DNA from: Cubamyces lactineus
Lineage: Eukaryota; Basidiomycota; Agaricomycetes; Polyporales; Polyporaceae
Length of the DNA stretch: 64,000 nucleotides
Direction: 5' to 3'
NCBI GenBank assembly: GCA_022376465.1
Contig: JACDTU010000032.1
Span: 1 to 64,000, forward strand
Shown one piece after another: positions 920-25,928 of the stretch (position 1 is the stretch's first letter; each line of letters opens with the position of its first letter). Made by a program: the position numbers and the translations under genes. The notes under the pieces are model-generated. The model was not told the origin of the DNA and made no database searches. It was given only the letters and a program-made list of their open reading frames with translations.

Positions 920-1880
920 AGTGGCATCTACAAAGTGGCCATGTCCATATACAATCCAGCTAAATGTGGGCAGATTGTATATCAGAGGCATGTACAAAAC
1001 TGCCACGTTCATATACAATTCAGCTATTGTAGATCAGACGTGGGCTGATTGTATATCAGAGGCATGTACAAAACTGCCACGTCCATATACAATCAAGTTA
1101 AATGTGGGCAGATTGTATATCAGAGGCATATACAATACTGCCACGTTCATATACAAAACTGCCACGTTCATATACAATCCAGCTATTGTATATCAGACGT
1201 GGGCTGATTGTATATCAGAGGCATTTACAAAACTGCCACGTCCATCTACAATCAAGCTAAACGTGGGCAGATTGTATATCAGAGGCATGTACAAATCACC
1301 CACGTTCATATACAAAACTGCCACGTTCATATACAAAACTGCCACGTTCATATACAATACTGCCACGTTCATATACAATACTGCCACGTTCATATACAAT
1401 CCAGCTATTGTATATCAGACGTGGGCTGATTGTATATCAGAGGCATGTACAAAACTGCCACGTCCATCTACAATCAAGCTAAACGTGGGCAGATTGTATA
1501 TCAGAGGCATGTACAAATCACCCACGTCCATCTACAATCCAGCCATTGACATCCACAAACCGCCCACGTCCATCTACAATCCAGCTTTTGTACATCAGAC
1601 GTGGGCAGATTGTATATCAGAGGCATGTACAAAGCACCCACGTCCATCTACAATCCAGCTATTGACATCTACAAACTGCCCACGTCCATCTACAATCCAG
1701 CTTTTGTACATCAGACGTGGGCAGATTGTATATCAGAGGCATCTACAAATCACCCACGTCCATCTACAATTCAGCTATTATACATTGGACGTGGGTGGAT
1801 TGTGTATTGCAGGGATATACAAACCACCCACGTCCATGTACGATCCAGCTATTGTGTATCATACGTGGGGGCATTATTCA
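920..1880 (+). repeat. Subterminal CACGT-core repeat array of the foldback element
   Basis: About two dozen degenerate units carry a CCCACGTC or GCCACGTT core followed by CATATACAA or CATCTACAA, in both orientations. A 21-bp unit (GCCACGTTCATATACAATAC-like) is repeated head to tail at about 1300-1400. Subterminal repeats of this kind are commonly transposase-binding sites; that role is inferred. Confidence 0.8.
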
Positions 1881-2073
1881 TGCATCTCATTTACAAATGT
1901 GGCACAATTGTTAATACACTACTACAAAAGCCCCACTCCCATTGAAAATCCATAGTGTCATTGATTCTCAATGAGGTGGGCCATTTGTATTTGTATATCG
2001 AGTTGGCAGGTCTTCCACGAGAATTTCCCCACCTACGTGGGCAGTTGTTAACAATCCGTGGTGACCACTAGTG

Positions 2074-2080
2074 AGTCCGT
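2074..2080 (+). repeat. Target-site duplication (right) of the foldback insertion in gag
   Basis: AGTCCGT follows the foldback terminus. The matching left copy is at 20,308-20,314. Joining the two gag halves through one copy of this heptamer restores the gag frame ([16 protein letters not shown]). Confidence 0.8.
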
Positions 2081-2626
2081 TGGGGTAATGCTCCGCTCCG
2101 GTACCGGTTCTACGACGGACTTCCGAACCGTCTCAAGGACCGCATCTCCGAGGTCGGCAAGCCCGAGACCCTGGTGGCCCTTCGCGACCTCGCGCAGTCG
2201 ATCGACAACCGCTACTGGGAGCGCAAGGCCGAGGTCTTGCGCGAGTCCGGACCTTCGAAGTCCGGTAACAAGTCGACCTCCGACTCCAAGTCCTCCAACT
2301 CCGGCAACAAGTCCGGAGGTAACAACTCCGGACAGGCCTCCTCGTCTACCCCGTCCAAGTCCGGTACTTCGTCGAAGTCTCCTAAGACTCCGAAGACCCC
2401 GGCCAAGACGTACACCGACAAGCTCGGTAAGGACGGAAAACTCACCCCCGAGGAGCGTCAACGCCGTTTCGCCAACAATCTCTGTCTCTTCTGCGGTGGA
2501 GCTGGTCATACCGCGAGTGCTTGTCCGAAGAAGACCTCGTCCGCGACTAAGGGTCGCGCCGCTCAAGCCAACCCCGCTCCCGCTGCGCCCGCTCCGGCTG
2601 CAGCCCCGAAGGAGACAAAAAATTAG
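2081..2626 (+). pseudogene. gag: Gypsy gag, 3' half (capsid C-terminus and zinc knuckle)
   Basis: This is the C-terminal part of a Ty3/Gypsy Gag, severed from its N-terminus by the foldback insertion. It starts in frame with [14 protein letters not shown], typical of the retrotransposon gag domain, continues through an Ala/Arg-rich helix region and a Ser/Lys/Gly-rich linker, and reaches one CCHC knuckle at 2482-2523 ([16 protein letters not shown]2-C-X4-H-X4-C). It ends at TAG 2624-2626. The N-terminal half that fits is at 19,400-20,314. Gag would form the cytoplasmic virus-like particle. No start codon or promoter remains on this side. Confidence 0.85.
2617..2623 (+). promoter_or_regulatory. 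Putative -1 ribosomal frameshift site (A AAA AAT) at the gag stop
   Basis: In the gag frame the sequence reads ACA AAA AAT TAG. The heptamer A AAA AAT fits the X XXY YYZ rule, and a -1 slip gives AAA AAA TTA GTC, which enters the pol frame directly. The pol frame has no ATG until 2827, inside the protease, so independent initiation is unlikely. I did not fold the downstream sequence for a stimulatory structure. Confidence 0.65.
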
Positions 2627-5600
2627 TCTGCGGTCCTCCGAACTCCGTACCCCGTGAGGACCGCGTTGACTCCTCCGGTACGGAGATCCTCAGGCTCAAC
2701 GCGTCCGCTCTTTCCGACCCCCATGCACTCTTCCTCGACTTGTACTCCGATCCTATCCCAACTCCGTTCCGCGCCCTTATCGACTCCGGTTCCTCCCATT
2801 GTTTCATCGACTCCGATTTCGCGACTATGTATCAACTCCCAACTACCGCCGTAACCCCGCTCCGTCTACAGCTTTTCGACGGTACTTCTAACCACCTGAT
2901 TACTTCGTTTACCACCCTGCCCGTACATTTCCCGTCTGGAGAAGTCCTCAATATAGATTTCTATGTTACTCCGCTCGACAAGTCCGTGTCTGCCGTTCTG
3001 GGATACAGCTGGCTCTCCGCCTACAATCCGTTGATTGACTGGAAGAAGCGCAGCATCCAATTCCGTTCCGCACCCCCGCCGCGTCCTGTTTCTGACACCA
3101 TGGTACCCCCGCCAGCTCCGGCTGAGCGTACTCCGTCTACTCCGTCTACTCCGGCTACTCCGGAACTACCGACTTCTCCTACTCCGACCTCCGTACCCCG
3201 GATCTCCCTTGTGAACGCTGCTGCTTTCGCTCGGGCTTGCAAACTCCCGGGGTCCGCGAGCTATACCCTGAACCTGTCTACCCCGGACTTGGCTACTGCG
3301 CGGAGTTCGTCCATCTCCGACTCTCCCCCGGACCTCACCGGAGTTCCGGAGGAGTACCACGAGTTTGCGGACGTCTTCAGCAAGACCAAGGCCGACATCC
3401 TACCGGAGCATCGCCCCTACGACTTAAAGATCGACCTGGAAGAAGGGGCTACTCCGCCACTCGGACCTATTTACTCCCTCTCAAAACTCGAGCTCGACAC
3501 GCTTCGGGAGTATATTGACGAGAACCTCCGATCGGGGTTCATACGTCCGTCCAACTCTCCCTGCGGAGCTCCCGTCCTCTTCGTCAAAAAGAAGGACGGA
3601 TCTCTTCGCCTTTGCGTGGACTACCGGGGCTTGAATAAGATCACCCGGAAGGACCGCTACCCCCTTCCTCTCGTCTCGGACTTGCTGGACGCGCCTCGGA
3701 AGGCCCGGATCTATACCAAAATCGACCTCCGTCACGCCTACAACCTAGTCCGCATAGCTCCTGGAGATGAGTGGAAGACCGCGTTTCGGACCCGCTATGG
3801 GTCTTTCGAATGGTTAGTCATGCCGTTCGGACTTTCTAACGCGCCCGCTGCTTTCCAGCGGTTCGTCAATGACATCTTCGCGGACATGCTCGATGTGTGC
3901 GTCATCGTCTACCTGGACGACATCCTCATCTACTCCGACAACCCCGAGCAACACCGCAAGCACGTCAAAGAGGTACTCCGGCGACTCCGCAAGCACCGGC
4001 TTTATGCCCGCGCTGACAAGTGCGAGTTCCACACTGACTCCGTCGAGTACCTCGGGTACATCCTCTCTCCCACCGGACTTACCATGGCGGAGTCGAAGGT
4101 TAAGGCGATCTTGGATTGGCCCGAACCCCGGAAGGTCCGCGACATACAGTCGTTCCTGGGGTTCGCGAACTTCTATCGACGGTTTATTCCAAACTACTCC
4201 GAGATCGTACTACCGCTGACCCGTTTAACCCGCAAGTCCGTGCCTTGGCACTTCTCCGAGGAATGTCGGAGTTCGTTTAACGCTCTCAAGAAGGCGTTCA
4301 CGACAGCTCCGGTACTACACCACTGGATGCCCGACCGACCCCTCACCGTCGAGACTGACGCCTCGGACTACGCCATCGCCGGCATTCTCTCCCTTACCAC
4401 CGAGTCCGGTGAACTCCACCCCATTGCCTTCCACTCCCGCACCTTGACCGGCGCGGAGTTGAACTACGACACCCACGACAAGGAACTCCTCGCGATCTTC
4501 GAATGTTTCAAGACCTGGCGGCACTACCTCGAAGGTTCGGCAACCCCGATCGACGTTGTCACGGACCACAAGAATTTGGTATACTTCGCGACTACGAAGT
4601 TACTGACCCGCCGTCAAGCCCGATGGTCGGAGTTCCTCTCGCAGTTCAACCTCGTAGTCCGGTTCCGGCCAGGTAAGCTTGGAGCAAAGCCCGACGCACT
4701 GACACGCCGTTGGGACGTCTACCCAAAAGAGGGGGGCAGTGACTACTCCGTCGTCAACCCACACAACTACCGACCGGTTTTCACCCAGGAGCAGCTCGCC
4801 GCGTCCCTCTGGGCTACCTACCTCCGACCCCCCGTACTCCGAGCTTCCTTCGTCCTCGACTCCGAACAACTCCTCTCGGACATCAAGTCCGCTCAAGCAA
4901 CCCCGACTCCTGACCCCGAACTATCTGCTGCACTCAAGCTCGCCTCCGAAGGTAACTCCCGATGGTCCCGCGATGAAGACGGGCTACTCCGACTCTCAGG
5001 TCGAGTCTATGTCCCGAACTCCGGCGACCTCCGCCTTCGCGTACTCCGAGCTTGTCACGACCACCCTACTGCCGGACACTGGGGACAGAACAAGACGCAA
5101 GCCCTGGTCCTGCGGGACTACGCCTGGCCCGGACTTCGACTCTTCGTCCGGGACTATTGTAAGTCCTGTACTACCTGTGCGCGAGCTAAAGTCCCCCGGC
5201 ATCTCCCCTACGGTACTTTGAAGCAACTCCCGATCCCCGAGCGACCCTGGAACTCCATCTCCATGGACCTCATCGAGCAACTCCCGAACTCCGCTGGCTA
5301 CACCGTGATCTTGGTGGTAGTCGACAGGCTCACTAAGCAAGGTATATTCATCCCTACCCACGACACGCTTACAGCCTCGGAGTTAGCGGACTTGTTCGTA
5401 CTCCATGTGTTCTCCAAGCACGGAGTTCCCTCGCACGTTACCTCCGACCGGGGCTCGGAGTTCGTCTCTCACTTCTTCCGCTCCCTCGGTAAGGCCCTCG
5501 ACATGCGCCTTCACTTCACCTCCGGTTACCACCCGGAAGGCGACGGTCAAACCGAGCGGGTTAACCAGACCCTCGAGCAGTACCTCCGGATCTATTCGAA

Positions 5601-6348
5601 CTACCAGCAGGACAACTGGTCCCAACTCCTTCCCTTGGCGGAGTTCGCGTACAACAATGCTCCGTCCGCAACTACCGGTATATCCCCGTTCTTCGCGAAC
5701 AAGGGCTACAACCCCGCCATCTCCGTCTACCCCGAGCGGGACCTCACCTCCGCTCGAGCTCGCGACTACGCTGTCGACCTCGACGAACTTCACACCCAAC
5801 TCCGACAGCAGATCGCCGAAGCCCAGGCCCGGTACCAAGTACAGGCGGACAAACACCGTCTACCCGCGCCGGACTTCAAGGTCGGAGATCAGGTCTATGT
5901 CCGAGCTCAGCACATCCGGACTACTCGTCCCTCCAAAAAGTTGTCCGAGAAGTTCTTAGGTCCGTTCACTATCATCGCGCAGGTCGGAACTCACTCCTTC
6001 ACCCTCCGACTACCGGACTCTATGCGCGCGGTACACCCCGTTTTCCATGTCTCACAACTCGAGCCTGCAACTCCGAACACCATCCCCGGCCGCGTCCAAA
6101 CTCCGCCACCTCCGATCCTGGTGGACGGAGAACCGGAGTACGAGATTTCGGAGATCCTCGACTCCAAGATTGACCGCCGGCGTCGGAGTTGTCAACTCCT
6201 GTACCTAGTCCGATGGGCAGGCTACGAAGGTACAGACGAAGAAACTTCGTGGATCTTGGCCACGGAGCTCGGACATGCCCAGGAGCTAGTTTCGGACTTC
6301 CACGCAGCTTACCCGGACAAGCCCGGACCTCTTGCTAAATTGTCTTGA
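2623..6348 (+). CDS. pol: Chromodomain Ty3/Gypsy Pol polyprotein (PR-RT-RNH-INT-CHD)
   Basis: This is an intact pol frame of about 1240 codons entered by frameshift from gag. The order is: an aspartic protease with the DSG motif ([15 protein letters not shown], 2767-2811); a reverse transcriptase (about 3440-4080) with VDYRGLN, the KIDLRHAYN aspartate and the YLDD box (3910-3921); RNase H (about 4310-4700) with ETDAS and a VTDHKNL segment; an integrase with an HHCC zinc finger (about 5050-5190) and the D,D35E core ([22 protein letters not shown]; 5260-5590); and a C-terminal chromodomain (about 6130-6320, [11 protein letters not shown]...YLVRWAGY). The chromodomain places it among chromoviruses, which are thought to target heterochromatin. 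I saw no stop or lost catalytic residue, so Pol itself looks functional although its gag is broken. Confidence 0.93.
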
Positions 6349-6455
6349 AGTTCACACGCGGAGTTCTCACCAGCAGATTTCTTTCTATACTCCTCCGCAC
6401 TCGGACTACAAGATACTAGCTACGAAGTCCGAGGTCCGAAGTCCGTACTACCGCC

Positions 6456-7849
6456 CTACTCCGCCATGTCCATGTCCGCCGGGTCCTCCGGCCCCTTCCC
6501 CTCCTTCGCGCCCTCGCCCTGCTCCTCCTCCTCCTCACCGGACTTGCCCCGCGCGGACTTGTCCAACCCCGACCCATTCTCCTCCTCCCAGTCCGACCCA
6601 GCAACCCCCGCCCGCTCCAGCGCGTCCGCGATCGCGTCCTCCTTGTCCTGCGAGGTGATCTCAAGGATCTCCCGCAGCATAGTCCCGAACTCCGTCGCGA
6701 GTTCGGACTTCACCGCCTCGCGGACGGCCTCGCCGATGACGGCCTTCAACTCCTTCCGCACGATCTTGGCGATGGCATCGCCAAGACCCCGGACCTCCTC
6801 CCGCATCATCTCCTCCCGCTGCTCCTCCTCGTCGACCAGCAGGTCGATGACCCGCCCCGCGGTGCGCCGGTTGCGCTGCACCGCGACGAGCAGGTGCTCG
6901 AGGAGCTCCCGGTCGGAGAGCTTCTCCGGGTCGTCGGACCACCGGAGGTCGGACTTCCCAACCTCCGGAAGTCCGGAGCTGGCGGACATCCGAGGGCCCG
7001 TCGACGAGCCTGCGATGCTCGGGCCTCGGGCGACGACTGTTCGTGCTGGGGGGTTAATTCCGGGTGGCGCGACAAAGGTCCATCGGACCTCACCTGGCTG
7101 CAGCGGCTTCTCCGCCGCCTTCTCCACCGTCTTCTCCTTCTCCTTCTCCTTCCCCTTGCCCTTCTCCGCCCGCACCTTCTCTCAACTCCGAACTCCGGTG
7201 GGCGCGGGGGTCTCAAACCCGTCGTCGTCGACGACGATGGGGGCGGACTTGACCTTCTTGCGCTGCGGGCTTGGGGCCTCCTCCTTGCGCGCGATCCGGG
7301 CTTGGATGTCCGCGGGAAGTCCGCGGGCCCCGACGCACGCGCGCGACCGAGCTTTCTGGCATTGGACGCAACTCGACGTCCATTTGCCCGCGCGGAACCG
7401 GCACGCGATTTGCTTCGCGGCGCACCGGTCGCACCTCGTCCTGTGGAACTCCGTTAGTCCGACCCCCGTACTCCGTACCCCGACCGGACTTACCGCGGGA
7501 CGAGCAACTCCGCGTCGTCCTCTTCCTCCTCCGACTCCGGCTCCTCGTCCTCCGCGGGACGCTTGCTTCCCCGCGCGGAAGCCCCGGCCTTCGCGAGGGC
7601 AGCCTGGCGGATCAGCGCTGCTGCCTTCTGCGCGGCCTCGTACTCCGCGCGCTCTTTCTCCTCCCGTGCTCGCTCCTCCTCCGCTTTTCGCGCCCTGTAA
7701 ACCACCGTTAGCCCGAACTCCGTACTCCGCAACCCCGGCAACCCCGGTACTTACGCTTTGGCTGCTGCGGCCTCCTCCGCCGCTGCCTTCATCCGGAGCT
7801 GCGCAAGGTGCGCCTCCAAAGCCTGAATGTTGTCGAGGGTTGAGGACAT
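6456..7849 (-). CDS. Antisense intron-containing accessory gene of the Gypsy element (zinc-cluster-like)
   Basis: This gene lies between pol and the 3' LTR but is read in the opposite direction. Exon 1 is 7755-7849 (MSSTLDNIQALEAHLAQLRM), exon 2 is 7494-7694 (Glu/Arg/Ala coiled-coil-like, then an acidic tail), and exon 3 starts at 7440. Both introns are GT-AG with CTAAC branch sites. Exon 3 encodes RCDRCAAKQIACRF...SCVQCQKARSRAC, two C-X2-C-X6-C-like halves resembling a fungal zinc-binding cluster. It then runs in the same frame into a Lys/Glu-rich stretch and a helical region (about 6500-6850). One in-frame TGA (7182-7184) separates the cluster from the C-terminal part. It may be a mutation, or a third intron I cannot place. 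Function is unknown; DNA binding or control of the element is only a suggestion. Confidence 0.65.
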
Positions 7850-7911
7850 AGTGCTGGTGGTGGTGGTGGGAGACAAAGAGCGAGGACGAACTGGCTAAGT
7901 CTCACCCCCGT

Positions 7912-7919
7912 CTTATATA
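7912..7919 (-). promoter_or_regulatory. TATA box of the antisense accessory gene
   Basis: TATATAAG on the minus strand lies 63-70 nt upstream of the ATG at 7849. The same box is kept at 9125-9132 upstream of the second copy of the gene, so it looks like a dedicated promoter inside the retrotransposon. Confidence 0.55.
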
Positions 7920-8039
7920 CACCTTTCTTCATCGATTCTGACCCTGCCCCGATTCTTGATCTCCGTTCCCTGGACTTATCGGATTACCTTTTTTGGACAG
8001 ACTTCCATTTCCCTTCACTATAGGCCCTCAAGGGTTCGG

Positions 8040-8056
8040 GCCTAGGGGGGAGGCAC
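8040..8056 (+). promoter_or_regulatory. Polypurine tract before the 3' LTR
   Basis: The stretch GGCCTAGGGGGGAGGCAC immediately precedes the LTR start (TGTTACG). Purine tracts in this position prime plus-strand cDNA synthesis in LTR elements. The same stretch precedes the LTR at 9270. Confidence 0.6.
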
Positions 8057-8749
8057 TGTTACGCTCCGTGCTGTAACCCCGAAGCCCGATCCCCGAACCC
8101 CCGTACCCCGCTCCTTACTCCGCGTTACGTACTCCGTTCCTCCGTACTCCGCTCTTCCGTACCCCGTACCCCCGACTCCGTTCTCCGTACTCCGCACTTC
8201 GTACTCCGTACTTCGGACTTCCCCCGACCCCATGACTTACATGTCTCAGATAACCCCTCATGGCGCTACCTACATGAGGCTTTTGCTTACTGAGCTATCT
8301 ACGTTATCTTACCCTTGGCAAGTTACTTCGTACTTTCGTTCTACTCCTTCCTATCACGTACATCTCTTATTGTTTCTATCGGGTTTCTGACTTAGTATAA
8401 ATACTGCCCCGGAATGTAGTAGCTACTCAGTTCGGAAATCTCGTTATACCCATTACTGGTTCAACTCGTAGTCCGACACTCAACCCCGACCCTCTAGTCT
8501 GACCAACCTTCGTTCCCTTCCTACCAACCCCTTCAACCCAACCCCGTTCCCAAGTCCGACCTTCGTCCCGTCAAGTCCGTACTCCGAAGTCCGCAAATAG
8601 AGGACACCGAGTCGGAACCCGTGCGTTACTAATAGTTTCGCGAAAGTCCTCACCCCAGTGCTAGTCCGACCTCCGGTCGTACTCCGACCCCGAACTCCGT
8701 CCAAGTCCCGACCACCGGAGTTGTACCCCCGGACGGCACGGTCCTAACA
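8057..8749 (+). repeat. Gypsy LTR 1 (693 bp, 3' LTR of the pol-bearing element)
   Basis: It starts TGTTACGCTCCG and ends GGTCCTAACA, the usual TG...CA boundaries. It contains TATAAATA and, 33 nt on, AGTTCGGAAAT. It has the same length as LTR 3 (18,676-19,368) and I see only a few differences between them, so the two are probably sister LTRs of the same element lineage. Its first 180 bp is a run of CCGTACTCCG-like decamers. Confidence 0.9.
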
Positions 8750-9058
8750 GACGCTTGCTCCCCCGCGCGGAAGTTCCGGCCTTCGCGAGGGCAGCCTGGC
8801 GAATCAACGCCGCTGCTTTTTGCGTGGCCTCGTACTCCGCGCGCTCCTTCTCCTCCCGCGCTCGCTCCTCCTCCCGCTTTCGCTCTTCCTCCGCCCTTCG
8901 CACCCTGTATACTACCGTTAGTCCGAACTCCGTACCCCGAACTCCGACAACCTCGGTACTTACGCCTCGGCTGCTGCGGCCTCCTCTGCCGCCGCCTTCA
9001 TCCGGAGTTGCGCGAGGTGCGCCTCCAGAGCCTGGATGTTGTCGAGAGTTGAAGACAT
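8750..9058 (-). pseudogene. Truncated second copy of the antisense accessory gene
   Basis: Exon 1 (8964-9058; MSSTLDNIQALEAHLAQLRM) and most of exon 2 repeat the 7494-7849 gene with small changes, including an extra ERKREE-like insertion. The copy stops after ARGSKR, where LTR 1 begins. It shows that the exon, intron and promoter layout of this gene is shared by separate element copies. Confidence 0.8.
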
Positions 9059-9124
9059 TAGTGGTGGTGGTGGTGGTGGTAGCTGAGAGAGAGCGAGGAA
9101 GAACTGGCTAAGTCTCACCCCCAT

Positions 9125-9132
9125 CTTATATA
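9125..9132 (-). promoter_or_regulatory. TATA box of the truncated antisense gene copy
   Basis: TATATAAG on the minus strand lies 67-74 nt upstream of the ATG at 9058, the same layout as at 7912-7919. Confidence 0.5.
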
Positions 9133-9269
9133 CACCTTTCTTCATCGATTCTGACCCTGCCCCGATTCTTGATCTCCGTCCCCTGGACTTATCGGATTAC
9201 CTTTTTTGGGCAGACTTCCATTTCCCTTCACTATAGGCCTTCAAGGGTTCGGGCCTAGGGGGGAGGCAC

Positions 9270-9984
9270 TGTTACGCTCCGTGCTGTAACCCCAAAGTCC
9301 GATCCCCGAACCCCCGTACTCCGCTCCTTACCCCGCACTACGTACTCCGCTTCCCCGTACTCCGCTCTTCCGTACCCCGTACCCCCGGCTCCGTTCTCCG
9401 TACTCCGCACTTCGTACTCCGTACTTCGGACTTCCCCCCAACCCCATGACTTACATGTCTCAGATAACCCCTCATGGCGCTACCTACATGAGGCTTTTGC
9501 TTACTGAGCTATCTACGTTATCTTACCCTTGGCAAGTTACTTCGTACTTTCGTTCTCCTCTTTCCTATCACGTACATCTCTTTTGTTTCTACCAGGTTTC
9601 TGACTTAGTATAAATACTGCCCCGGAATGTAGTAGCTACTCAGTTCGGAAATCTCGTTATACTCGTTAACCTTGTACACTCGTCTTACTGGACTTCTAGT
9701 CCGTACTCCGACACTCAACCCCGACTCCCTAGTCCGACCAACCTTCGTTCCCTTGCTACCAACCCCTTCGACCCAACCCCGTCCCCAAGTCCGACCTTCG
9801 TCCCGTCAAGTCCGTACTCCGTAGTCCGTAAATAGAGGACATCGAGTCGGAACCCGTGCGTTACTAATAGTTTCGCGAAAGTCCTCACCCCAGTGCTAGT
9901 CCGACCTCCGGTCGTACTCCGACCCCGAACTCCGTCCAAGCCCCGACCACCGGAGTTATACCCCCGGACGGCACGGTCCTAACA
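9270..9984 (+). repeat. Gypsy LTR 2 (715 bp, longer subfamily)
   Basis: It has TGTTACG...CTAACA boundaries like LTR 1 but carries an insertion-type variant downstream of the transcription start region (GTACACTCGTCTTACTGGAC). LTR 4 shares that variant. It is the 3' LTR of the sister fragment at 8750-9269. The flank to the right starts TCATC. Confidence 0.9.
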
Positions 9985-12831: not shown

Positions 12832-15800
12832 ATGCCCGATATTATGAATTCGCTCCGCATCGTCTTTCATAACGTCAACCACTCTCCGCAACAAACTCAC
12901 CTCGTCCTTGAACAGTGCGCTGCTGCGGAGGTGGACATAGTATGTTTGCAAGAACCATGGTACGGCTCAATCCGCCCCATCCCCTCGGCGTCGCCGGCAG
13001 GCCCGGCGGACCGCACTGAGGACAACATGCTCTATGGTACCCAACTACATCCAGCATGGCGACTCATTGAAGCTCGTAAAGACGCACGGGTGGTGTGCCA
13101 TGTCAGCCGCCGCCTAGTCAACGCCTTCATTACGCTCGACCCCGTGGTAAACCACCGCGACTGCATGCTGCTCGCAGTACGGCTCGACGCAAACCATGAC
13201 CCTACCAACATTCTCAATATCTACAACGATACGCGGAACAGCGCAGTCGCATACCTTGCTGACATCGTACAGCGCCTGCCCGACATCGATGTTGCAGGCG
13301 GTGACTACAACACACACTCCGAAGTGTGGGACCCGGCGTACCCCCGGCGTGACTCTGCAGAGCGTGTAGGCGAGCTCCTCGACCTACAGGTTGCATTGGG
13401 CCTCCGCCTGCTCTCTCCGGTGGGCGTGCAGACCCACTTCCCACACCACGGCGCCAGCCCAACGGTCATCAACCTCGTCTGGGTGCCCAACGACCGCAAC
13501 CCTGACCTCTACCGCATCCATGTTGAGGGTCGCGATCGAGGCCTGTCGGACCATGCCATCATCTCAGTGGTCATTCCCACAGGCGAATGGTCGTACAAGG
13601 GCCAGCCCACAATCGCGCCCAAGTCAGAAGCGGAACAAGAGTTCATCACCTCCGTCCGTGACGGCCTGCATGCCGCATTCCCCCCACAGCCCAGTGTTGC
13701 CTCAGTTGGCAACTTACGGCGAGTGGTCGACACCGTGTTCGATTGCATCCTCAATGCCTGGAACGCGCACGCCCGACCGGCCACCATCTGCACCAAGACA
13801 TGCCAGTGGTGGGATGCGTCTTGCACGGCAGCCCGGGATAAGCTCGAAACAGCCCACGACCGACTGACACAGGTACGGGTCGAGGAACCACGCCTAGTGC
13901 CTGCAGCGCGCGCAGCGGTCAAACGGGCGTATCGACATCTCAAAAGCACTGTGCGCGTGCGACGCCGCAAACACTTCGATGAACGCATTGAGCAAGTCGC
14001 ATCAGAGCAGCGTCGTGTATGGGACCTGATGGCATGGGTTGGACCCCGCGCGCTGCCTATGTACCGGTCCCTTGTCCATGGCAGCCAACCACTGCAAGCC
14101 CTCCCGGACCTGTGGAACGCCCTCGACCAAACCTTCCACGCAGCGGCCAACCGTCCAATCGACATCTCCATCATCAACGAAGTTGCGGAGCTCCCGGAAA
14201 GAGAGTGCCCGGACATTGCAAAGGCGGAGATCCTTGATGCGCTGCGCGGAGTCGCCACCTCCTCCACGCCGGGATGGGACCATCTCCACTGGCGCCACCT
14301 CAAACTCCTCGCCAAGGACGAGCGTGTCCTCAACATCCTCCACACGATTTACAACGCCATACTGCGCTACGGTCACTGGCCGGCGCAATTCAAGCGCGCC
14401 GTCTCTGTAGTTATCCCAAAGCCCTACAAGGACGACTACTCCCGTATCAAGTCCTACCGCCCCATCGTCCTTCTCAGCACCCTCGGAAAGCTGTTTGAGA
14501 AGATCGTCAGCGAGCGGCTGCACTACGAATGCCAGAAGCACGGCATCCTACACCCAAATCAGTTTGGCAGTACTAAGGCTCACAGCACCATCGACGCCGC
14601 CACCCACCTCATCACCCACATTCGTGCCGGCTGGAAGAAAAAGCTCGTCACTACGTGCTACGCATTCCATGTAGCACAATTCTTCCCGTCCATGAACCAC
14701 GAACTGCTGTGCCAGCTCATGGCACGCTACGGCTTCGCCTCCCGGATGGTAACATTCTTCCACGACTACCTCGCCGGGAGGCGCTCATGCTTCCGCTGGG
14801 GCAACGCAGTATCCCCGTGGTTTGACCTACCCGCAGTAGGAGCGGGGCAAGGCTCTGCCCTCTCCCCAGTCCTCACAAACATCTACATCTCCCCGGCCCT
14901 ACACATCCTCTCCCCACCCCGCGCTGCACAGAGCTCCTCAGCCATCCAGTTCTACGTCAACGATGGCCTGTGGATCGTCACCACACCCTCCATAGCGGAA
15001 AACTGCTGCATCCTCCAGGGGAAACATCGGGACACAAGTACGGTACTGGCTCGTCTTGGCCTCGTCACAGAGGGCGACAAAAGCGAGCTCATGCACTTTG
15101 CGTGCACCCGCCTGGCGCGCTCGCAAGACATGGGATGTCCACTGGTGCTCAGCCCAACACTGTCAATCGAACCCAGCGACGTGTGGCGATACCTGGGGTT
15201 CCGCTTGGACTCTAAACTCACATTCCGAGCGCACGTGGCCCACTTTGCAGAGCGCGCGACCACCACCATCAGTGCCATGCTGATGCTGGGCAACTTGGTG
15301 TGCGGACTTTCAGCCATGCAGCGACGCACGCTATACATCTCGTGCGTCCTCCCATTACTCACATATGGCGTACAGGCATGGTACCGGCCTAAGGGCGTCA
15401 AAACCCTCATCAAACCACTCGAAGTTGCGCAACACCGTGCGCTGCGGTGGATCACCGGCGCGTTTCGTACAACGCCAGTCGGCGCTCTGCACTCTCTGGC
15501 GGGCATCATGCCCATCGGGTTGCAGTGCCAGAAACTCCAGGAGTGCTACTTCCTGCGCCTCCACACCCTGCCCGACTCTCATCCGTTACGCGCCCACTTC
15601 CCCAACATCCTCGGTCATGCGGAGCACGCGCCTCACGTACGCTTCCCGGCCGAGAGCATCAAACCCACTCCGACCATCCCTCTCACCACCGCGTTCCCGC
15701 GCAAACGACCTCTGATCACCGAGGTGTTCGACCCCCTTGACGACGAGTGCCAGCCTGGCACCCGAGTGCGCGATCTATTTGAAGACCGCATCTCCACACA

Positions 15801-16821
15801 CTTCGCACACCCAAAAAAGGGGGATGAAGACGCCATGGCCAAGTGGATTGCGGAAGAACTACGTCCCAGGATCGACAATGCCCACGCCGACACGAGCGCC
15901 CTGGTCATCTTCACCGATGGCAGCGCATATCTGAAACCGGACCCCCGCACCTCACGCACTGGATCAGCCGCTGGGTACCGTGCATACCACAAAGGATGGC
16001 TTATCCACTTCCGTGCCATATTCACAGGAAATGCACACTCATACGACTGCGAGTCAGTGGCGCTGTCCATGGCGGTAGCATTTGCATACCAAAAGGGACG
16101 CTACGCACAAGTGCACATCTTCTCAGACAGCGAAAGCGCTCTCACGAGCATTCTCAACACCTCAGGCGGGCGCATGGCAGCTGTCAACACGTGCCGGATT
16201 CTCCGTGACTGGTTCGAGCGCAGCCCTGACAACCACCTCCACCTCCACTACTGCCCCGGCCACTCTGGGATCGTGGAGAACGAAGCGGTCGACGCCGACG
16301 TCAAGCTCATGGCCCTCGAACCAGGGAACATGCACTTCTATGGCCGGTTTCCAACGTTCCACTCATACATCAAGAGCGCGATCACCGAGGACGCAGTGTA
16401 TGAGTGGCGTGAGCAAGCCTCGAAGGACAGTCGCAAGTACTGGGGACGGCACTTCCTCATCAACCACCCGTCCGTCCGTACAGTCAAACACACCGGCAAC
16501 TTCCCGCTAAAACGCCTCGGTGGAGGCCCCGTCATCACCACGCGCCTCGTGCGGTGCTTGACCGGACACGCTCCTACGGGCTCCTACCGACTGCGCTTCC
16601 GCACACGCCTGGACGAACCAACCTTTTGCTCCCTTCACGACGGCACCCCGATGATGCACTCATGCGAACACATCCTTTTCCGATGCAACTACTACACCCG
16701 AAGATACCGACACTCATCAATCGAAGACCTCCTACAATCCCTCGACCCATTTTACGACATTGTGCACTTCCTCGCGGACAACCCATCGGCGCTTACCTTT
16801 GATGACCTACCGACGGCGTGA
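12832..16821 (+). CDS. LINE ORF2: AP-type endonuclease, reverse transcriptase, RNase H
   Basis: This open frame of 1329 codons starts 24 nt after ORF1. The N-terminus is an exonuclease-endonuclease-phosphatase domain (LRIVFHNVNHS, VCLQEPWYG, GGDYNTHS, LSDHAIISV; residues 1-250). The reverse transcriptase spans about residues 480-830 (KSYRPIVLLSTLGKLFEKI, GAGQGSALSPVLTNIYIS). The usual first catalytic Asp before AQFFPS is His here (AFHVAQFFPS), and the second-motif YVDD is YVND (about 14,950-14,967). RNase H follows (FTDGS, DCESVAL, SDSESAL, ENEAVDADVK; about 1020-1150), then a Cys/His C-terminus (CSLHDG...CEHILFRC). With two metal-binding aspartates lost, polymerase activity is doubtful although the frame is open. 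Confidence 0.9.
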   Translation: MPDIMNSLRIVFHNVNHSPQQTHLVLEQCAAAEVDIVCLQEPWYGSIRPIPSASPAGPADRTEDNMLYGTQLHPAWRLIEARKDARVVCHVSRRLVNAFITLDPVVNHRDCMLLAVRLDANHDPTNILNIYNDTRNSAVAYLADIVQRLPDIDVAGGDYNTHSEVWDPAYPRRDSAERVGELLDLQVALGLRLLSPVGVQTHFPHHGASPTVINLVWVPNDRNPDLYRIHVEGRDRGLSDHAIISVVIPTGEWSYKGQPTIAPKSEAEQEFITSVRDGLHAAFPPQPSVASVGNLRRVVDTVFDCILNAWNAHARPATICTKTCQWWDASCTAARDKLETAHDRLTQVRVEEPRLVPAARAAVKRAYRHLKSTVRVRRRKHFDERIEQVASEQRRVWDLMAWVGPRALPMYRSLVHGSQPLQALPDLWNALDQTFHAAANRPIDISIINEVAELPERECPDIAKAEILDALRGVATSSTPGWDHLHWRHLKLLAKDERVLNILHTIYNAILRYGHWPAQFKRAVSVVIPKPYKDDYSRIKSYRPIVLLSTLGKLFEKIVSERLHYECQKHGILHPNQFGSTKAHSTIDAATHLITHIRAGWKKKLVTTCYAFHVAQFFPSMNHELLCQLMARYGFASRMVTFFHDYLAGRRSCFRWGNAVSPWFDLPAVGAGQGSALSPVLTNIYISPALHILSPPRAAQSSSAIQFYVNDGLWIVTTPSIAENCCILQGKHRDTSTVLARLGLVTEGDKSELMHFACTRLARSQDMGCPLVLSPTLSIEPSDVWRYLGFRLDSKLTFRAHVAHFAERATTTISAMLMLGNLVCGLSAMQRRTLYISCVLPLLTYGVQAWYRPKGVKTLIKPLEVAQHRALRWITGAFRTTPVGALHSLAGIMPIGLQCQKLQECYFLRLHTLPDSHPLRAHFPNILGHAEHAPHVRFPAESIKPTPTIPLTTAFPRKRPLITEVFDPLDDECQPGTRVRDLFEDRISTHFAHPKKGDEDAMAKWIAEELRPRIDNAHADTSALVIFTDGSAYLKPDPRTSRTGSAAGYRAYHKGWLIHFRAIFTGNAHSYDCESVALSMAVAFAYQKGRYAQVHIFSDSESALTSILNTSGGRMAAVNTCRILRDWFERSPDNHLHLHYCPGHSGIVENEAVDADVKLMALEPGNMHFYGRFPTFHSYIKSAITEDAVYEWREQASKDSRKYWGRHFLINHPSVRTVKHTGNFPLKRLGGGPVITTRLVRCLTGHAPTGSYRLRFRTRLDEPTFCSLHDGTPMMHSCEHILFRCNYYTRRYRHSSIEDLLQSLDPFYDIVHFLADNPSALTFDDLPTA

Positions 16822-18640: not shown

Positions 18641-19014
18641 ACGTGACTGTAGGATCGTTGCCTAAAGCCTGGTGCTGTTACGCTCCGTGCTGTAACCCCG
18701 AAGCCCGATCCCCGAACCCCCGTACCCCGCTCCTTACTCCGCGTTACGTACTCCGTTCCTCCGTACTCCGCTCTTCCGTACCCCGTACCCCCGACTCCGT
18801 TCTCCGTACTCCGCACTTCGTACTCCGTACTTCGGACTTCCCCCGACCCCATGACTTACATGTCTCAGATAACCCCTCATGGCGCTACCTACATGAGGCT
18901 TTTGCTTACTGAGCTATCTACGTTATCTTACCCTTGGCAAGTTACTTCGTACTTTCGTTCTACTCCTTCCTATCACGTACATCTCTTATTGTTTCTATCG
19001 GGTTTCTGACTTAG

Positions 19015-19022
19015 TATAAATA
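19015..19022 (+). promoter_or_regulatory. LTR core promoter TATA box
   Basis: TATAAATA lies 33 nt upstream of AGTTCGGAAAT, a normal TATA-to-start spacing. It is conserved in all four LTRs. Confidence 0.65.
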
Positions 19023-19047
19023 CTGCCCCGGAATGTAGTAGCTACTC

Positions 19048-19058
19048 AGTTCGGAAAT
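19048..19058 (+). promoter_or_regulatory. Probable mRNA 5' end and self-primer (AGTTCGGAAAT)
   Basis: These 11 nt sit where transcription should start and are the exact reverse complement of 19,371-19,381. In Tf1 the first 11 nt of the mRNA act as the reverse-transcription primer. Confidence 0.65.
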
Positions 19059-19370
19059 CTCGTTATACCCATTACTGGTTCAACTCGTAGTCCGACACTC
19101 AACCCCAACCCTCTAGTCCGACCAACCTTCGTTCCCTTCCTACCAACCCCTTCAACCCAACCCCGTTCCCAAGTCCGACCTTCGTCCCGTCAAGTCCGTA
19201 CTCCGAAGTCCGCAAATAGAGGACACCGAGTCGGAACCCGTGCGTTACTAATAGTTTCGCGAAAGTCCTCACCCCAGTGCTAGTCCGACCTCCGGTCGTA
19301 CTCCGACCCCGAACTCCGTCCAAGTCCCGACCACCGGAGTTGTACCCCCGGACGGCACGGTCCTAACAGT

Positions 19371-19381
19371 ATTTCCGAACT
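19371..19381 (+). promoter_or_regulatory. Self-complementary primer-binding site
   Basis: ATTTCCGAACT begins 2 nt after the 5' LTR, the standard primer-binding position, and pairs perfectly with 19,048-19,058. It does not begin with TGG, as a tRNA-primed site would. Confidence 0.7.
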
Positions 19382-19399
19382 CACCGGGTTTCACTCAAT

Positions 19400-20314
19400 A
19401 TGTCCACTCGAACCGTAGTCCGCACTCAGACGCAATCTCGCGCCCTAGAGCAAGAAGACCCCGCCGAGAACTGGAGTGGCTGGACAGCTCGCCGAGGCGA
19501 CTCAGCGACGCAAGAAGAAGCTACTCCGAGCCGCCGCGGGCAGTTCGCTCGAACAATCGTCGAAGCGTCCTCCGATGGGGACGACGAAGGTGACCCGCCT
19601 CAGCCTCTGGTCATCTCTACCGCGACTGCCTCGCAGGTACCCCGCGAGCCATCTCCGGGGAACCCGTTCTCCGAGGGTCAGCCTTCAGGTCCGAGCCGCG
19701 GGCCTCCGGGTCCGCCTAGTCCTCCAGGTCCGCCGGGCCCTCCAGGACCGCCAGGCCCTCCGGACAACGACCCACAAGGGCCGGGAGACGACGACACTAG
19801 CTCAAGCTCGGACTCCTCCGACTCCGAAGACCGGGTTCAGTCGCAACTAGCGACCGCGATCTCTCTCATCGCGCGTACCCTCGAACGTACTACCGCTCCA
19901 ACTCCGGCGGTTACCCAACCTTCGAACAACGAGCGGCACAACGTCCGCGAGCCGGACCAGTTCGACGGGTCCGACCCCAACAAACTCCGGTCTTTCTTCA
20001 CGCAGTTGGAACTTGTCTTCAAGGCCCGACCCCGAACCTTCGACTCCGATGAGAAGAAGGTGACCTACGCCATCTCCTTCCTCAAGGGCACCGCGCTACA
20101 GTGGTTCGAGCCCTACCTCCTCGAAGGCGACTCGGACAACCCCCCCATCTTCCTTACATCCTACGACCACTTCCAGGAGGAACTCCGAGTGAACTTCGGT
20201 CCTTACGACGCCTCCGGAGCTGCGGAGCATGAGCTGATGAACCTCCGGATGGGCGACAACCAGCGGATAGCTAAGTACATCACTCAGTTCACCCGCCTCG
20301 CTACTCAAGTCCGT
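19400..20314 (+). pseudogene. gag: Gypsy gag, 5' half, interrupted by foldback copy B
   Basis: The frame starts at ATG 19,400, 31 nt after the LTR (MSTRTVVRTQTQSRALEQED). It has a disordered N-terminus with a collagen-like PPGPPG run (about 19,690-19,760), an acidic Asp/Ser stretch, and the start of the capsid domain (DQFDGSDPNKLRSFFTQLEL, ALQWFEPYL, AKYITQFTRLATQVR). Coding stops at 20,314, where the foldback element begins. The missing C-terminal half matches 2081-2626 exactly at the joint. Any read-through into the foldback repeats would give a nonsense tail. Confidence 0.88.
20308..20314 (+). repeat. Target-site duplication (left) of the foldback insertion in gag
   Basis: AGTCCGT precedes the foldback terminus CAGTCGTGGTCACC. 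The right copy is at 2074-2080. Confidence 0.8.
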
Positions 20315-22569
20315 CAGTCGTGGTCACCACGGATTGTTAACAACTGCCCACGTAGGTGGGGAAATTCTCGTGGAAGACCTGCCAACTCGATATACAAATA
20401 CAAATGGCCCACCTCATTGAGAATCAATGACACTATGGATTTTCAATGGGAGTGGGGCTTTTGTAGTAGTGTATTAACAATTGTGCCACATTTGTAAATG
20501 AGATGCATGAATAATGCCCCCACGTATGATACACAATAGCTGGATCGTACATGGACGTGGGTGGTTTGTATATCCCTGCAATACACAATCCACCCACGTC
20601 CAATGTATAATAGCTGAATTGTAGATGGACGTGGGTGATTTGTAGATGCCTCTGATATACAATCTGCCCACGTCTGATGTACAAAAGCTGGATTGTAGAT
20701 GGACGTGGGCAGTTTGTAGATGTCAATAGCTGGATTGTAGATGGACGTGGGTGCTTTGTACATGCCTCTGATATACAATCTGCCCACGTCTGATGTACAA
20801 AAGCTGGATTGTAGATGGACGTGGGCGGTTTGTGGATGTCAATGGCTGGATTGTAGATGGACGTGGGTGATTTGTACATGCCTCTGATATACAATCTGCC
20901 CACGTTTAGCTTGATTGTAGATGGACGTGGCAGTTTTGTACATGCCTCTGATATACAATCAGCCCACGTCTGATATACAATAGCTGGATTGTATATGAAC
21001 GTGGCAGTATTGTATATGAACGTGGCAGTATTGTATATGAACGTGGCAGTATTGTATATGAACGTGGCAGTTTTGTATATGAACGTGGCAGTTTTGTATA
21101 TGAACGTGGGTGATTTGTACATGCCTCTGATATACAATCTGCCCACGTTTAGCTTGATTGTAGATGGACGTGGCAGTTTTGTAAATGCCTCTGATATACA
21201 ATCAGCCCACGTCTGATATACAATAGCTGGATTGTATATGAACGTGGCAGTTTTGTATATGAACGTGGCAGTATTGTATATGCCTCTGATATACAATCTG
21301 CCCACATTTAACTTGATTGTATATGGACGTGGCAGTTTTGTACATGCCTCTGATATACAATCAGCCCACGTCTGATCTACAATAGCTGAATTGTATATGA
21401 ACGTGGCAGTTTTGTACATGCCTCTGATATACAATCTGCCCACATTTAGCTGGATTGTATATGGACATGGCCACTTTGTAGATGCCACTTTTGTATTACA
21501 ACTACTATCTGGGCACTTTCTAGCGCTTTTTGGGCTCCTATTTGGGCGCTTCTTCAACGCTTTTGGGCGCTTTTTTTGGCTGTTATCTGGGCGCTTTTTT
21601 TGGGCTGTTATCTGGGCGCTTTTTGGGTTCCTATTTGGGCGCTTTTGGGCGCTTTTTTGCGTCCAAATAGGGCAGGTATATTCAACACCTCCTGCCCCCC
21701 TCTGGGGCTCTATTAGGGCACCCTATTGGGCTAAAATATCATAATATGTATGTGTATGCTGTAGTTCATCTCTATGTGCATAGCATAGAACAGGGCAGGG
21801 AAAATAGCCTAAAAATGCGACCCCAGAGCAGGGGCCACCAGGAGGGGACCACTGCAGGGTGGCTGGGCTGGCTTCCTCTGGGCCAATTCCTATGAGTAAT
21901 ATATCATTCAAAAGGTGCTTGAAAGGGCTTTCCAACATATGTTTTTGCAGGAGGAAACATGCATATTGGTAGAGATATGGACCATCGCATTTTTGCCAAA
22001 AATGGCCATTTTGTTTCCTTGATTGCTTGGCAACCAGGCATTCCCTCAGGCCTCCCTTGATACCATTAGATTCGCATTTTTAAGGGCTTTCTAACGGTAG
22101 TAAATATATGGCATTCTGACCACATGCATTGTCACCCTCCTCCTGCCCCTCCCCCACTTTACCACCTCATAGCTCCTGCAGTTCGTGGTCTTTCCCTGTG
22201 ATCTCTTTTGATCCTTGTAGTATACATACATAACTATGTATCTACAGCTTTACATGCCCTAATATGGCCTACACCCAATGGAATTCATCTATGTGCATTT
22301 TCGTACTTTTCAGGTTCTCCCTCCCATATCTCTGCACCCAGAGCAGCTATTGCCTTCGTTGTTTTTGCACTTTGTGCCTATACATCTTTACTACATGTCT
22401 GTAGAAGCTCAATTTTATCGAATGCAGTAATCAGAATTGAGCTCCTTATCAGCTGTAGTAGGCAGATCCTGTTTTGGCTTATATCTAGGTCATTACTTTT
22501 TGATCAGATGGCACATTCATATGCTACTCATCTATAGCTACCTGTAACAACAAGAATCATGAGATTTGG
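20315..22569 (+). mobile_element. Foldback element copy B, left arm
   Basis: This arm of 2255 bp is the reverse complement of copy A's right arm plus the inner part missing from the window start. It starts CAGTCGTGGTCACCACGGATTG, against CACTAGTGGTCACCACGG for the reverse complement of copy A's right end. Its inner end (about 22,200-22,569) is repeated without visible change, inverted, at 22,717-23,086. It carries the same CACGT subterminal array (20,510-21,480) and GCGCCCA block (about 21,520-21,660). Confidence 0.82.
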
Positions 22570-22716
22570 TGAAGAATTGAGTGAGCTACAGGAGATGGAC
22601 CTCCTGGACACCCAAAGTTGCACTGTGTGCAGTTGCACTGCTCCGGAAATGCATGCAGTGCACAGCTGAACAGGCAGCATTTGGTGCCTCTGTGCCATAT
22701 CTCTGCAACCACTCAT
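22570..22716 (+). other. Foldback loop (147 bp)
   Basis: Unique sequence lies between the inverted arms, with no coding capacity. It has small TGCA-rich inverted motifs (GTTGCACTGTGTGCAGTTGCAC). Confidence 0.75.
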
Positions 22717-24049
22717 CCAAATCTCATGATTCTTGTTGTTACAGGTAGCTATAGATGAGTAGCATATGAATGTGCCATCTGATCAAAAAGTAATGACCTA
22801 GATATAAGCCAAAACAGGATCTGCCTACTACAGCTGATAAGGAGCTCAATTCTGATTACTGCATTCGATAAAATTGAGCTTCTACAGACATGTAGTAGAG
22901 ATGTATAGGCACAAAGTGCAAAAACAACGAAGGCAATAGCTGCTCTGGGTGCAGAGATATGGGAGGGAGAACCTGAAAAGTACGAAAATGCACATAGATG
23001 AATTCCATTGGGTGTAGGCCATATTAGGGCATGTAAAGCTGTAGATACATAGTTATGTATGTATACTACAAGGATCAAAAGAGATCACAGGGAAAGACCA
23101 CGAACTGCAGGAGCTATGAGGTGGTAAAGTGGGGGAGGGGCAGGAGGAGGGTGACAATGCATGTGGTCAGAATGCCATATATTTACTACCGTTAGAAAGC
23201 CCTTAAAAATGCGAATCTAATGGTATCAAGGGAGGCCTGAGGGAATGCCTGGTTGCCAAGCAATCAAGGAAACAAAATGGCCATTTTTGGCAAAAATGCG
23301 ATGGTCCATATCTCTACCAATACTGCATGTTTCCTCCTGCAAAAACATATGTTGGAAAGCCCTTTCAAGCACCTTTTGAATGATATATTACTCATAGGAA
23401 TTGGCCCAGAGGAAGCCAGCCCAGCCACCCTGCAGTGGTCCCCTCCTGGTGGCCCCTGCTCTGGGGTCGCATTTTTAGGCTATTTTCCCTGCCCTGTTCT
23501 ATGGCTATGCACATAGAGATGAACTACAGCATACACATACATATTATGCATATTTCTAGCCCAATAGGGTGCCCTAATAGAGCCCCAGAGGGGGGCAGGG
23601 AGGTGTTGAATATACCTGCCCTATTTGGACGCAAAAAAGCGCCCAAAAGCGCCCAAATAGGAGCCCAAAAAGCGCCCAGATAACAGCCCAAAAAGCACCC
23701 AGATAACAACCAAAAAAAGCGCCCAGATAACAGCAAAAAAAGCGCCCAAATATCACCCAAAAAAGCGCCCAAAAGCGTTGAAAAAGCGCCCAGATAAAGA
23801 TAAGATTGGCTGCCCAGCCCATTTACAATCAAATACGCGCTGATCTAGAGGCTGCCCAGGTCATTTACAATGAAATACGCGCAGGTCTGGCTGCTGCCCA
23901 GCTCATTTACAATGTATTATAATAGTGGGCCAATGCCGATATTATAATGCTGGACCACCTGAATTACATTTACAACCAGTGGCCACAAAAGACACACACT
24001 CCAACCATGTTGGTGGGTGATTATATTATAAAAATGGAAACCACTAGTG
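22717..24049 (+). mobile_element. Foldback element copy B, right arm with a different outer end
   Basis: From 22,717 to about 23,795 it mirrors the left arm. Beyond that the CACGT array is absent. Instead there are three units of about 42 bp (GCTGCCCAGnnCATTTACAAT, about 23,809-23,925) and a short AT-rich tail ending ACCACTAGTG (24,040-24,049), the same last 10 bp as copy A. The flanking heptamer does not match AGTCCGT. The right half therefore belongs to a related element type, or arose by recombination. Confidence 0.7.
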
Positions 24050-25222: not shown

Positions 25223-25928
25223 TGTTACGCTCCGTGCTGTAACCCCGAAGTCCGATCCCCGAACCCCCGTACTCCGCTCCTTACTCCGCACTACGTACTC
25301 CGTTCCTCCGTATTCCGTTCTTCCACACCCCGTACCCCCGACTCCGTTCTCCATACTCCGCCCTTCGTACTTCGTACTTCGGGCTTCCCTCGACCCCATG
25401 ACTTACATGTCTCAGATAACCCCTCATGGCGCTACCTACATGAGGCTTTTGCTTACTGAGCTATCTGCGTTATCTTACCCTTGGCAAGTTACTTCGTACT
25501 TTCGTTCTTCTCCTTCCTATCACGTACATCTCTTATTGTTTCTATCAGGTTTCTGACTTAGTATAAATACTGCCCCGGAATGTAGTAGCTACTCAGTTCG
25601 GAAATCTCGTTGAGCTTGTACACTCGTCTTACTGGACTTCTAGTCCGTACTCCGGCACTCAACCCCAACCCCCTAGTCCGACCAACCTTTGTTCCCTTCC
25701 TACCAACCCCTCCGACCCAACCCCATTCCCAAGTCTGACCCCTGTCCCGTCAAGTCCGTACTCCGTAGTCCGCAAATAGAGGACACCGAGTCGGAGCCCG
25801 TGCATTACTAATAGTTTCGCGAAAGTCCTCACAACAGTGCTAGTCTGACCTCCGGTCGTACTCCGACCCCGAACTCCGTCCAAGTCCCGACCACCGGAGT
25901 TGTACCCCCAGACGGCACGGTCCTAACA
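25223..25928 (+). repeat. Solo Gypsy LTR 4 (706 bp)
   Basis: It is a complete LTR from TGTTACG to CTAACA with no internal element on either side. It is flanked by GTAGG duplications at 25,218-25,222 and 25,929-25,933. This is the product of LTR-LTR recombination after a normal 5-bp integration. It belongs to the longer LTR 2 type. Confidence 0.92.

Follow-up and report, generated by a model that had tools for sequence, protein, structure and literature searches.

Primer and primer-binding-site pairs consistent with Tf1-type self-priming in six LTR retrotransposon families of Cubamyces lactineus

Ty3/gypsy copies in the window

We analyzed a 64,000-nt stretch of the Cubamyces lactineus genome (contig JACDTU010000032.1, positions 1 to 64,000; hereafter the window), which carries pieces of one Ty3/gypsy family on the forward strand. 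The copy beginning at 18676 is a fragment, consisting of a 5' LTR and 0.9 kb of gag, and its match to the family stops at 20313. The relevant features are as follows:

2074..8749 (+), 3' part of a copy from this family, with the remainder of gag, pol (frame 2740-6348) and 3' LTR (8057-8749)
8033..8056 (+), polypurine tract region ending in GGGGGGAGGC, followed by AC and then the 3' LTR
9270..9984 (+), LTR belonging to an older copy, with its R 11-mer at 9642-9652
18676..19368 (+), 5' LTR of the fragmentary copy, 693 bp, TGTTA...TAACA
19015..19022 (+), TATA-like TATAAATA, its start 33 nt ahead of the first primer base
19048..19058 (+), AGTTCGGAAAT, proposed as the self-primer and presumed to form the initial 11 nt of the transcript, with the transcript start deduced
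19059..19065 (+), CTCGTTA, in the predicted fold base-paired with TAACAG from the LTR end
19369..19370 (+), GT spacer of 2 nt between LTR and primer-binding site (PBS)
19371..19381 (+), proposed PBS ATTTCCGAACT
19400..20313 (+), 5' part of gag, by comparison with the gag of family copy L008; family match ends at 20313
25223..25928 (+), solo LTR with GTAGG on both flanks, R 11-mer at 25595-25605

The original prediction placed the 11-mer 33 nt after TATAAATA, which is right when counted from start to start (19015 versus 19048), and put its exact reverse complement 2 nt past the 5' LTR, where ATTTCCGAACT was indeed read directly after the GT that follows the LTR end at 19368. The PBS at 19371 lacks a TGG start, and AGTTCGGAAAT is exact in all four window LTRs (8429, 9642, 19048, and 25595), both as predicted. 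Taken by itself, the pair of this single element is only moderately significant against chance: among 2000 dinucleotide shuffles of the LTR at 18676-19368, one contained an 11-nt complement to the next 30 nt.

The element had also been described as a chromodomain Gypsy element. This holds for the family, as the pol of copy L008 matched the Pfam models for protease, reverse transcriptase (RT), RNase H, integrase, SH3_Tf2-1, and, just above the cut-off, the chromodomain (PF00385, 26.4 bits versus 25.1), but the copy at 18676 is a fragment, and the window pol sits in the separate piece at 2074-8749. The closest solved sequence to the L008 pol is the Ty3 pol, and the closest species-named pol proteins are from Trametes versicolor and Trametes cinnabarina. 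Gag and pol occupy separate frames in the L008 copy.

The two family pieces stop at the same gag position (window 20308-20313 and 2074-2079): element bases 1-1659 correspond to 18676-20313 and bases 1654-8338 to 2074-8749, an overlap of 6 bases. Both gag ends adjoin copies of one repeat in opposite orientations, with inverted arms at 1286-2074 and 20314-21102. The outer flanks differ (GGTGC and GACGC), and thus the two pieces do not seem to be one simply split copy; a rearrangement or a misassembly is possible. The young copy ends at 8749 within an older member of its own family (element bases 7147-8338 = window 8750-9984, 90.5% identical). Elsewhere in the window, an open frame at 12832-16821 (+) encodes a 1329-aa product whose endonuclease, RT, and RNase H domains class it as a non-LTR retrotransposon, and an inverted repeat lies at 21964-23322, with arms of 606 nt that are 100% complementary and 147 nt between them.

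Recurrence and variation of the pair

Across the 36.3-Mb genome, AGTTCGGAAAT and ATTTCCGAACT occurred together at a gap of 300-330 nt in 28 places, each listed on both strands because the pair pattern is its own reverse complement, whereas the reversed control gave none. The PBS alone was found 71 times forward and 84 times in reverse (control, 5 and 5). Among the 11 full-length copies compared, nine had 0-1 mismatches between their LTRs and nine had equal 5-bp flanks, indicating that the family moved recently. The 3' LTR of L017 (8259-8965) runs straight into another PBS, and two copies thus seem to share one LTR in tandem, an observation recorded for the loci L017 and L023.

The first 23 loci were picked by the pair pattern itself and are thus uninformative about its conservation. 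A second sample comprised 20 regions picked by their distance from an RT match rather than by the 11-mers, and the PBS was located in 14. Ten of these 14 copies carried the exact pair, three had one side changed, and in one (L043) the R side was not found. The one-sided changes were two C to T substitutions in the PBS (L037), GG to AA in R (L047), and an altered last PBS base (L048). Over about 310 U5 positions, these three differed from L008 by 17, 17, and 23 changes, respectively, while four of the ten exact-pair copies had 0-1 changes and six had 10-19; the changed copies are diverged, yet not clearly beyond some exact ones. They look like products of decay after insertion, which we offer as a judgement because other copies equally far from L008 retain the exact pair. 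Covariation of the two 11-mers within the family, proposed earlier as a check, was thus answered in part: most copies kept the exact pair, but three showed the one-sided change that had been named as evidence against self-priming, and no compensatory change was seen among the copies in which the PBS was located.

In an RT search of the genome, 150 of 290 candidates were scored, with groups at about 59, 57, 55, and 53% identity, and one member from each of six further RT groups was fetched. LTRs could be delimited in five, which together with the window family (F1) gave the six families compared. The sixth group, F6 (L028), was left out before families were counted, as its fetched stretch held no LTR pair; the only 12-nt pair in that stretch has the letters of F7. 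Further families may exist beyond the 150 scored candidates. The primers, and the number of shuffles out of 2000 per LTR that reached the observed length when the offset was not required to match, were:

F1 (window family), AGTTCGGAAAT, 1
F2, GCGCAATCAA, 0
F3, GCGGAATCAA, 5
F4, AGCTCGACCT, 13
F5, AGACTAATCCA, 1
F7, AGCTTTCAGTCT, 1

In all six families, the longest LTR complement to the next 30 nt measured 10-12 nt and began at the third base after the LTR, whereas the longest match between families was 7 nt (30 comparisons). CTC directly preceded the primer in every family, and the first primer base was A or G. In F1, F4, F5, and F7, a clear TATA-like box (7-8 of 8 letters) began 32-34 nt upstream of the primer; the TATA-like match was poor in F2 and F3 (5-6 of 8 letters) and tied with other distances. 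Genome-wide, the F7 pair occurred in 73 places and the F5 pair in three (controls, 0).

A compensatory change was also found between relatives. Related forms exist within the F2 group: L024 and L070 carry GCGCAATCAA/TTGATTGCGC, while L071 carries GCGGAATCAA/TTGATTCCGC, a difference of one compensatory C/G base pair in a background where L070 and L071 share 105 of 126 aligned positions from primer to PBS (83%). The L071 pair is identical to that of F3, and L071 matches L072 at 86 of 109 positions. When C or G was allowed on both sides, the genome search returned seven F2/F3 places, all matched and none mixed. We aligned the six distinct pairs (F1, F2, L071 = F3, F4, F5, and F7) at the primer 3' end and found all 60 positions matched; two to four kinds of base pair occur at every one of the 10 aligned positions. 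Among the 720 reassignments of primers to sites, only the true one reaches 60 (next best, 58). Our literature search on self-primer covariation and on Trametes primer sites returned nothing.

We further folded seven leaders (one per family plus L071), each running from the start of the primer to 25 nt past the PBS. Every primer base was paired with the PBS in the predicted minimum-energy folds of all seven leaders, for which shuffle tests covered the side duplexes only, and the mean primer-PBS pair probability in the predicted ensembles was 0.967-0.984. In F1, the predicted helix continues with bulges, joining CTCGTTA to TAACAG at the LTR end; its side-duplex energy was not significant (p = 0.084). 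Compared with 500 shuffles each, Tf1-type side duplexes gave p = 0.026-0.55 on the LTR side and p = 0.06-0.94 downstream, and the side duplexes of a Tf1-like, three-duplex ('pretzel') leader are thus not clearly supported by these models.

Proposed self-priming and its alternatives

Self-priming has been demonstrated for Tf1 and suggested for further elements (PMC7175516, PMC10085805, PMC4600332, PMC6317226). As described for Tf1, the first 11 nt of the RNA are complementary to the PBS and are cut off between nt 11 and 12 (PMC7175516). In the Tf1/sushi group, self-priming is presented as a common feature, and a three-duplex leader is stated (PMC10085805). The arrangement here resembles that of Tf1 and Tf2 of Schizosaccharomyces pombe in the Ty3/gypsy affiliation, the chromodomain, and the complementarity of the RNA 5' end, presumed here, with the PBS (PMC7175516). 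Tf1 and Tf2 use no tRNA primer, and here no good match was found among the 21 tRNAs compared. It differs in that the primer match is 10-12 nt depending on the family and that self-priming is inferred from sequence; moreover, Tf1 is described as having one ORF (PMC10085805), unlike the L008 copy. Tj1 of S. japonicus and Tosmo/Tcry likewise have a PBS that is the complement of the presumed 5' end of their RNA (PMC4600332, PMC10085805); the three-duplex leader described as possible for them is not clearly supported in our families. Tcn1 of the basidiomycete Cryptococcus neoformans and the moss Tcn1-clade elements share the chromodomain and a proposed self-priming (PMC7175516, PMC6317226). For Tcn2-5, a possibly novel priming is mentioned (PMC7175516), and in the account of Selaginella SM-Tcn1 neither tRNA priming nor self-priming was found (PMC2864245). 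A plant survey counted as self-primers complements of at least 10 bp starting 0-5 bp past the LTR, predicting them in 12% of elements (PMC6317226); all six of our pairs have this length and placement.

The Tf1-like arrangement put forward in the original prediction was borne out at the sequence level in position, length, exact pairing, compensatory change across families and once between relatives, genome recurrence, and pairing in predicted folds. The window element and the five other families very probably use Tf1-type self-priming. Weighing on the other side are the three one-sided copies of the window family and its lack of a compensatory change, the poor TATA-like matches in F2 and F3, the side duplexes that gained no clear support, and the incompleteness of the tRNA set. 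The transcript start, the RNase H cut, and the priming step are our reading of this pattern. Transcription would begin at 19048 or within a very short distance of it, immediately following CTC, with TATAAATA starting 33 nt upstream. The 11 nt at the 5' end of the transcript would then fold back over about 320 nt onto the site 2 nt past the LTR, and the element's RNase H would cut after nt 11. The new 3' end could prime minus-strand DNA, adding A and C opposite the GT spacer before copying U5. If the plus-strand primer ended before the AC that precedes the 3' LTR, both cDNA ends would extend 2 nt beyond TGTTA...TAACA, as integrase trimming needs.

The alternative that survives best is priming by a tRNA, or by a fragment of one, with the LTR match being secondary; we consider it improbable. 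We compared the sites with 21 tRNAs, taken from 20 stretches and forming part of at least 66 in the genome, with Gly, Cys, Ala, Val, Thr, Gln, Ile, Phe, Ser, and Arg among the identified isotypes and no Met. The F5 site does begin with TGG, but the other five do not, the best exact complement to these tRNAs was 8 nt, and the best 3'-end match was 8 of 12, with no good tRNA match in this incomplete set; the LTR complement, in contrast, is exact and family-specific. Less probable still is that the sites pair for RNA folding, packaging, or dimerisation rather than as a primer. Pairing is indeed predicted and its link to priming comes from sequence alone, but the site occupies the PBS position at a constant 2 nt past the LTR, and our comparisons revealed no second candidate for a primer site. 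We give slightly less weight again to self-priming in trans, where the 5' end of one RNA would serve as primer at the PBS of another RNA sharing its particle; sequence cannot separate this from intramolecular folding, although pairing within one RNA is favored in the predicted ensembles. Chance complementarity, for which single families give 0-13 shuffles out of 2000 with a complement as long as the real one, we reject on the cross-family table; it is untenable given the same offset in six families with different letters.

Self-priming itself is not a new mechanism; the notable result is the set of six families with one geometry, different letters, and one compensatory pair between relatives. 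More tentatively, and with rather less than even confidence, we suggest that the PBS may be rewritten from the primer in each replication cycle, so that the pairs stay locked together while drifting. Plus-strand synthesis would copy the 11-nt RNA into the new PBS, and any LTR change there would reach the PBS in one step. If true, this would explain the exact pairs in every family examined and the compensatory pair without two independent mutations. The shared geometry (a 10-12-nt primer behind CTC; a PBS 2 nt past the LTR end) with unlike letters forms a natural variant set. Together with window-family copies whose LTR pairs are 0-1 bases apart, it makes primer length, cut site, and primer-to-PBS copying testable.

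An intron-bearing gene on the opposite strand

Opposite gag-pol, between pol and the 3' LTR, the window family carries a three-exon frame (window 6456-7919, minus strand; L008 6663-8126, minus strand). Its parts in the window are:

7919-7912 (-), TATA, TATATAAG, followed by an ATG-started frame
7849-7755 (-), exon 1
7754-7695 (-), intron 1, GTAAGT...AG
7694-7494 (-), exon 2
7493-7441 (-), intron 2, GTAAGT...AG
7440-6456 (-), exon 3

In five diverged copies that align throughout, changes fall mostly at third codon positions in each exon; for exon 3, the counts at the first, second, and third positions were 8, 7, 36; 6, 4, 43; 12, 17, 57; 10, 6, 46; and 4, 6, 32. The TATA box, ATG, and splice sites are kept in all eight copies aligning there, of which three hardly differ from the reference. 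Two others (L007 and L010) stop short of this part, and the bias in L007 is only weak (22, 10, 30). As a control, one sense frame in the overlap is also third-position biased, with slightly higher numbers of amino-acid changes, 10, 13, and 14 versus 4, 10, and 11 in the antisense frame (L011, L009, and L019, respectively). Exons 1 and 2, the splice sites, and annotated relatives in Trametes cubensis are therefore the main basis for assigning the strand. On these grounds, we interpret the frame as a conserved intron-bearing gene on the opposite strand of the window family. Reverse transcription would leave introns on the strand opposite to the genomic RNA in place. A genome search with exon 3 gave 75 matches, and the window copy of this exon carries a TGA. 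No Pfam model fits the antisense protein, but its start has the spacing CX2CX6CX10CX2CX7C, which by eye is like a Zn2Cys6 cluster. A narrow literature search for antisense ORFs in fungal LTR elements returned nothing; a work cited in PMC8365987 reports that Boty-like elements of Botrytis carry an antisense gene, brtn.
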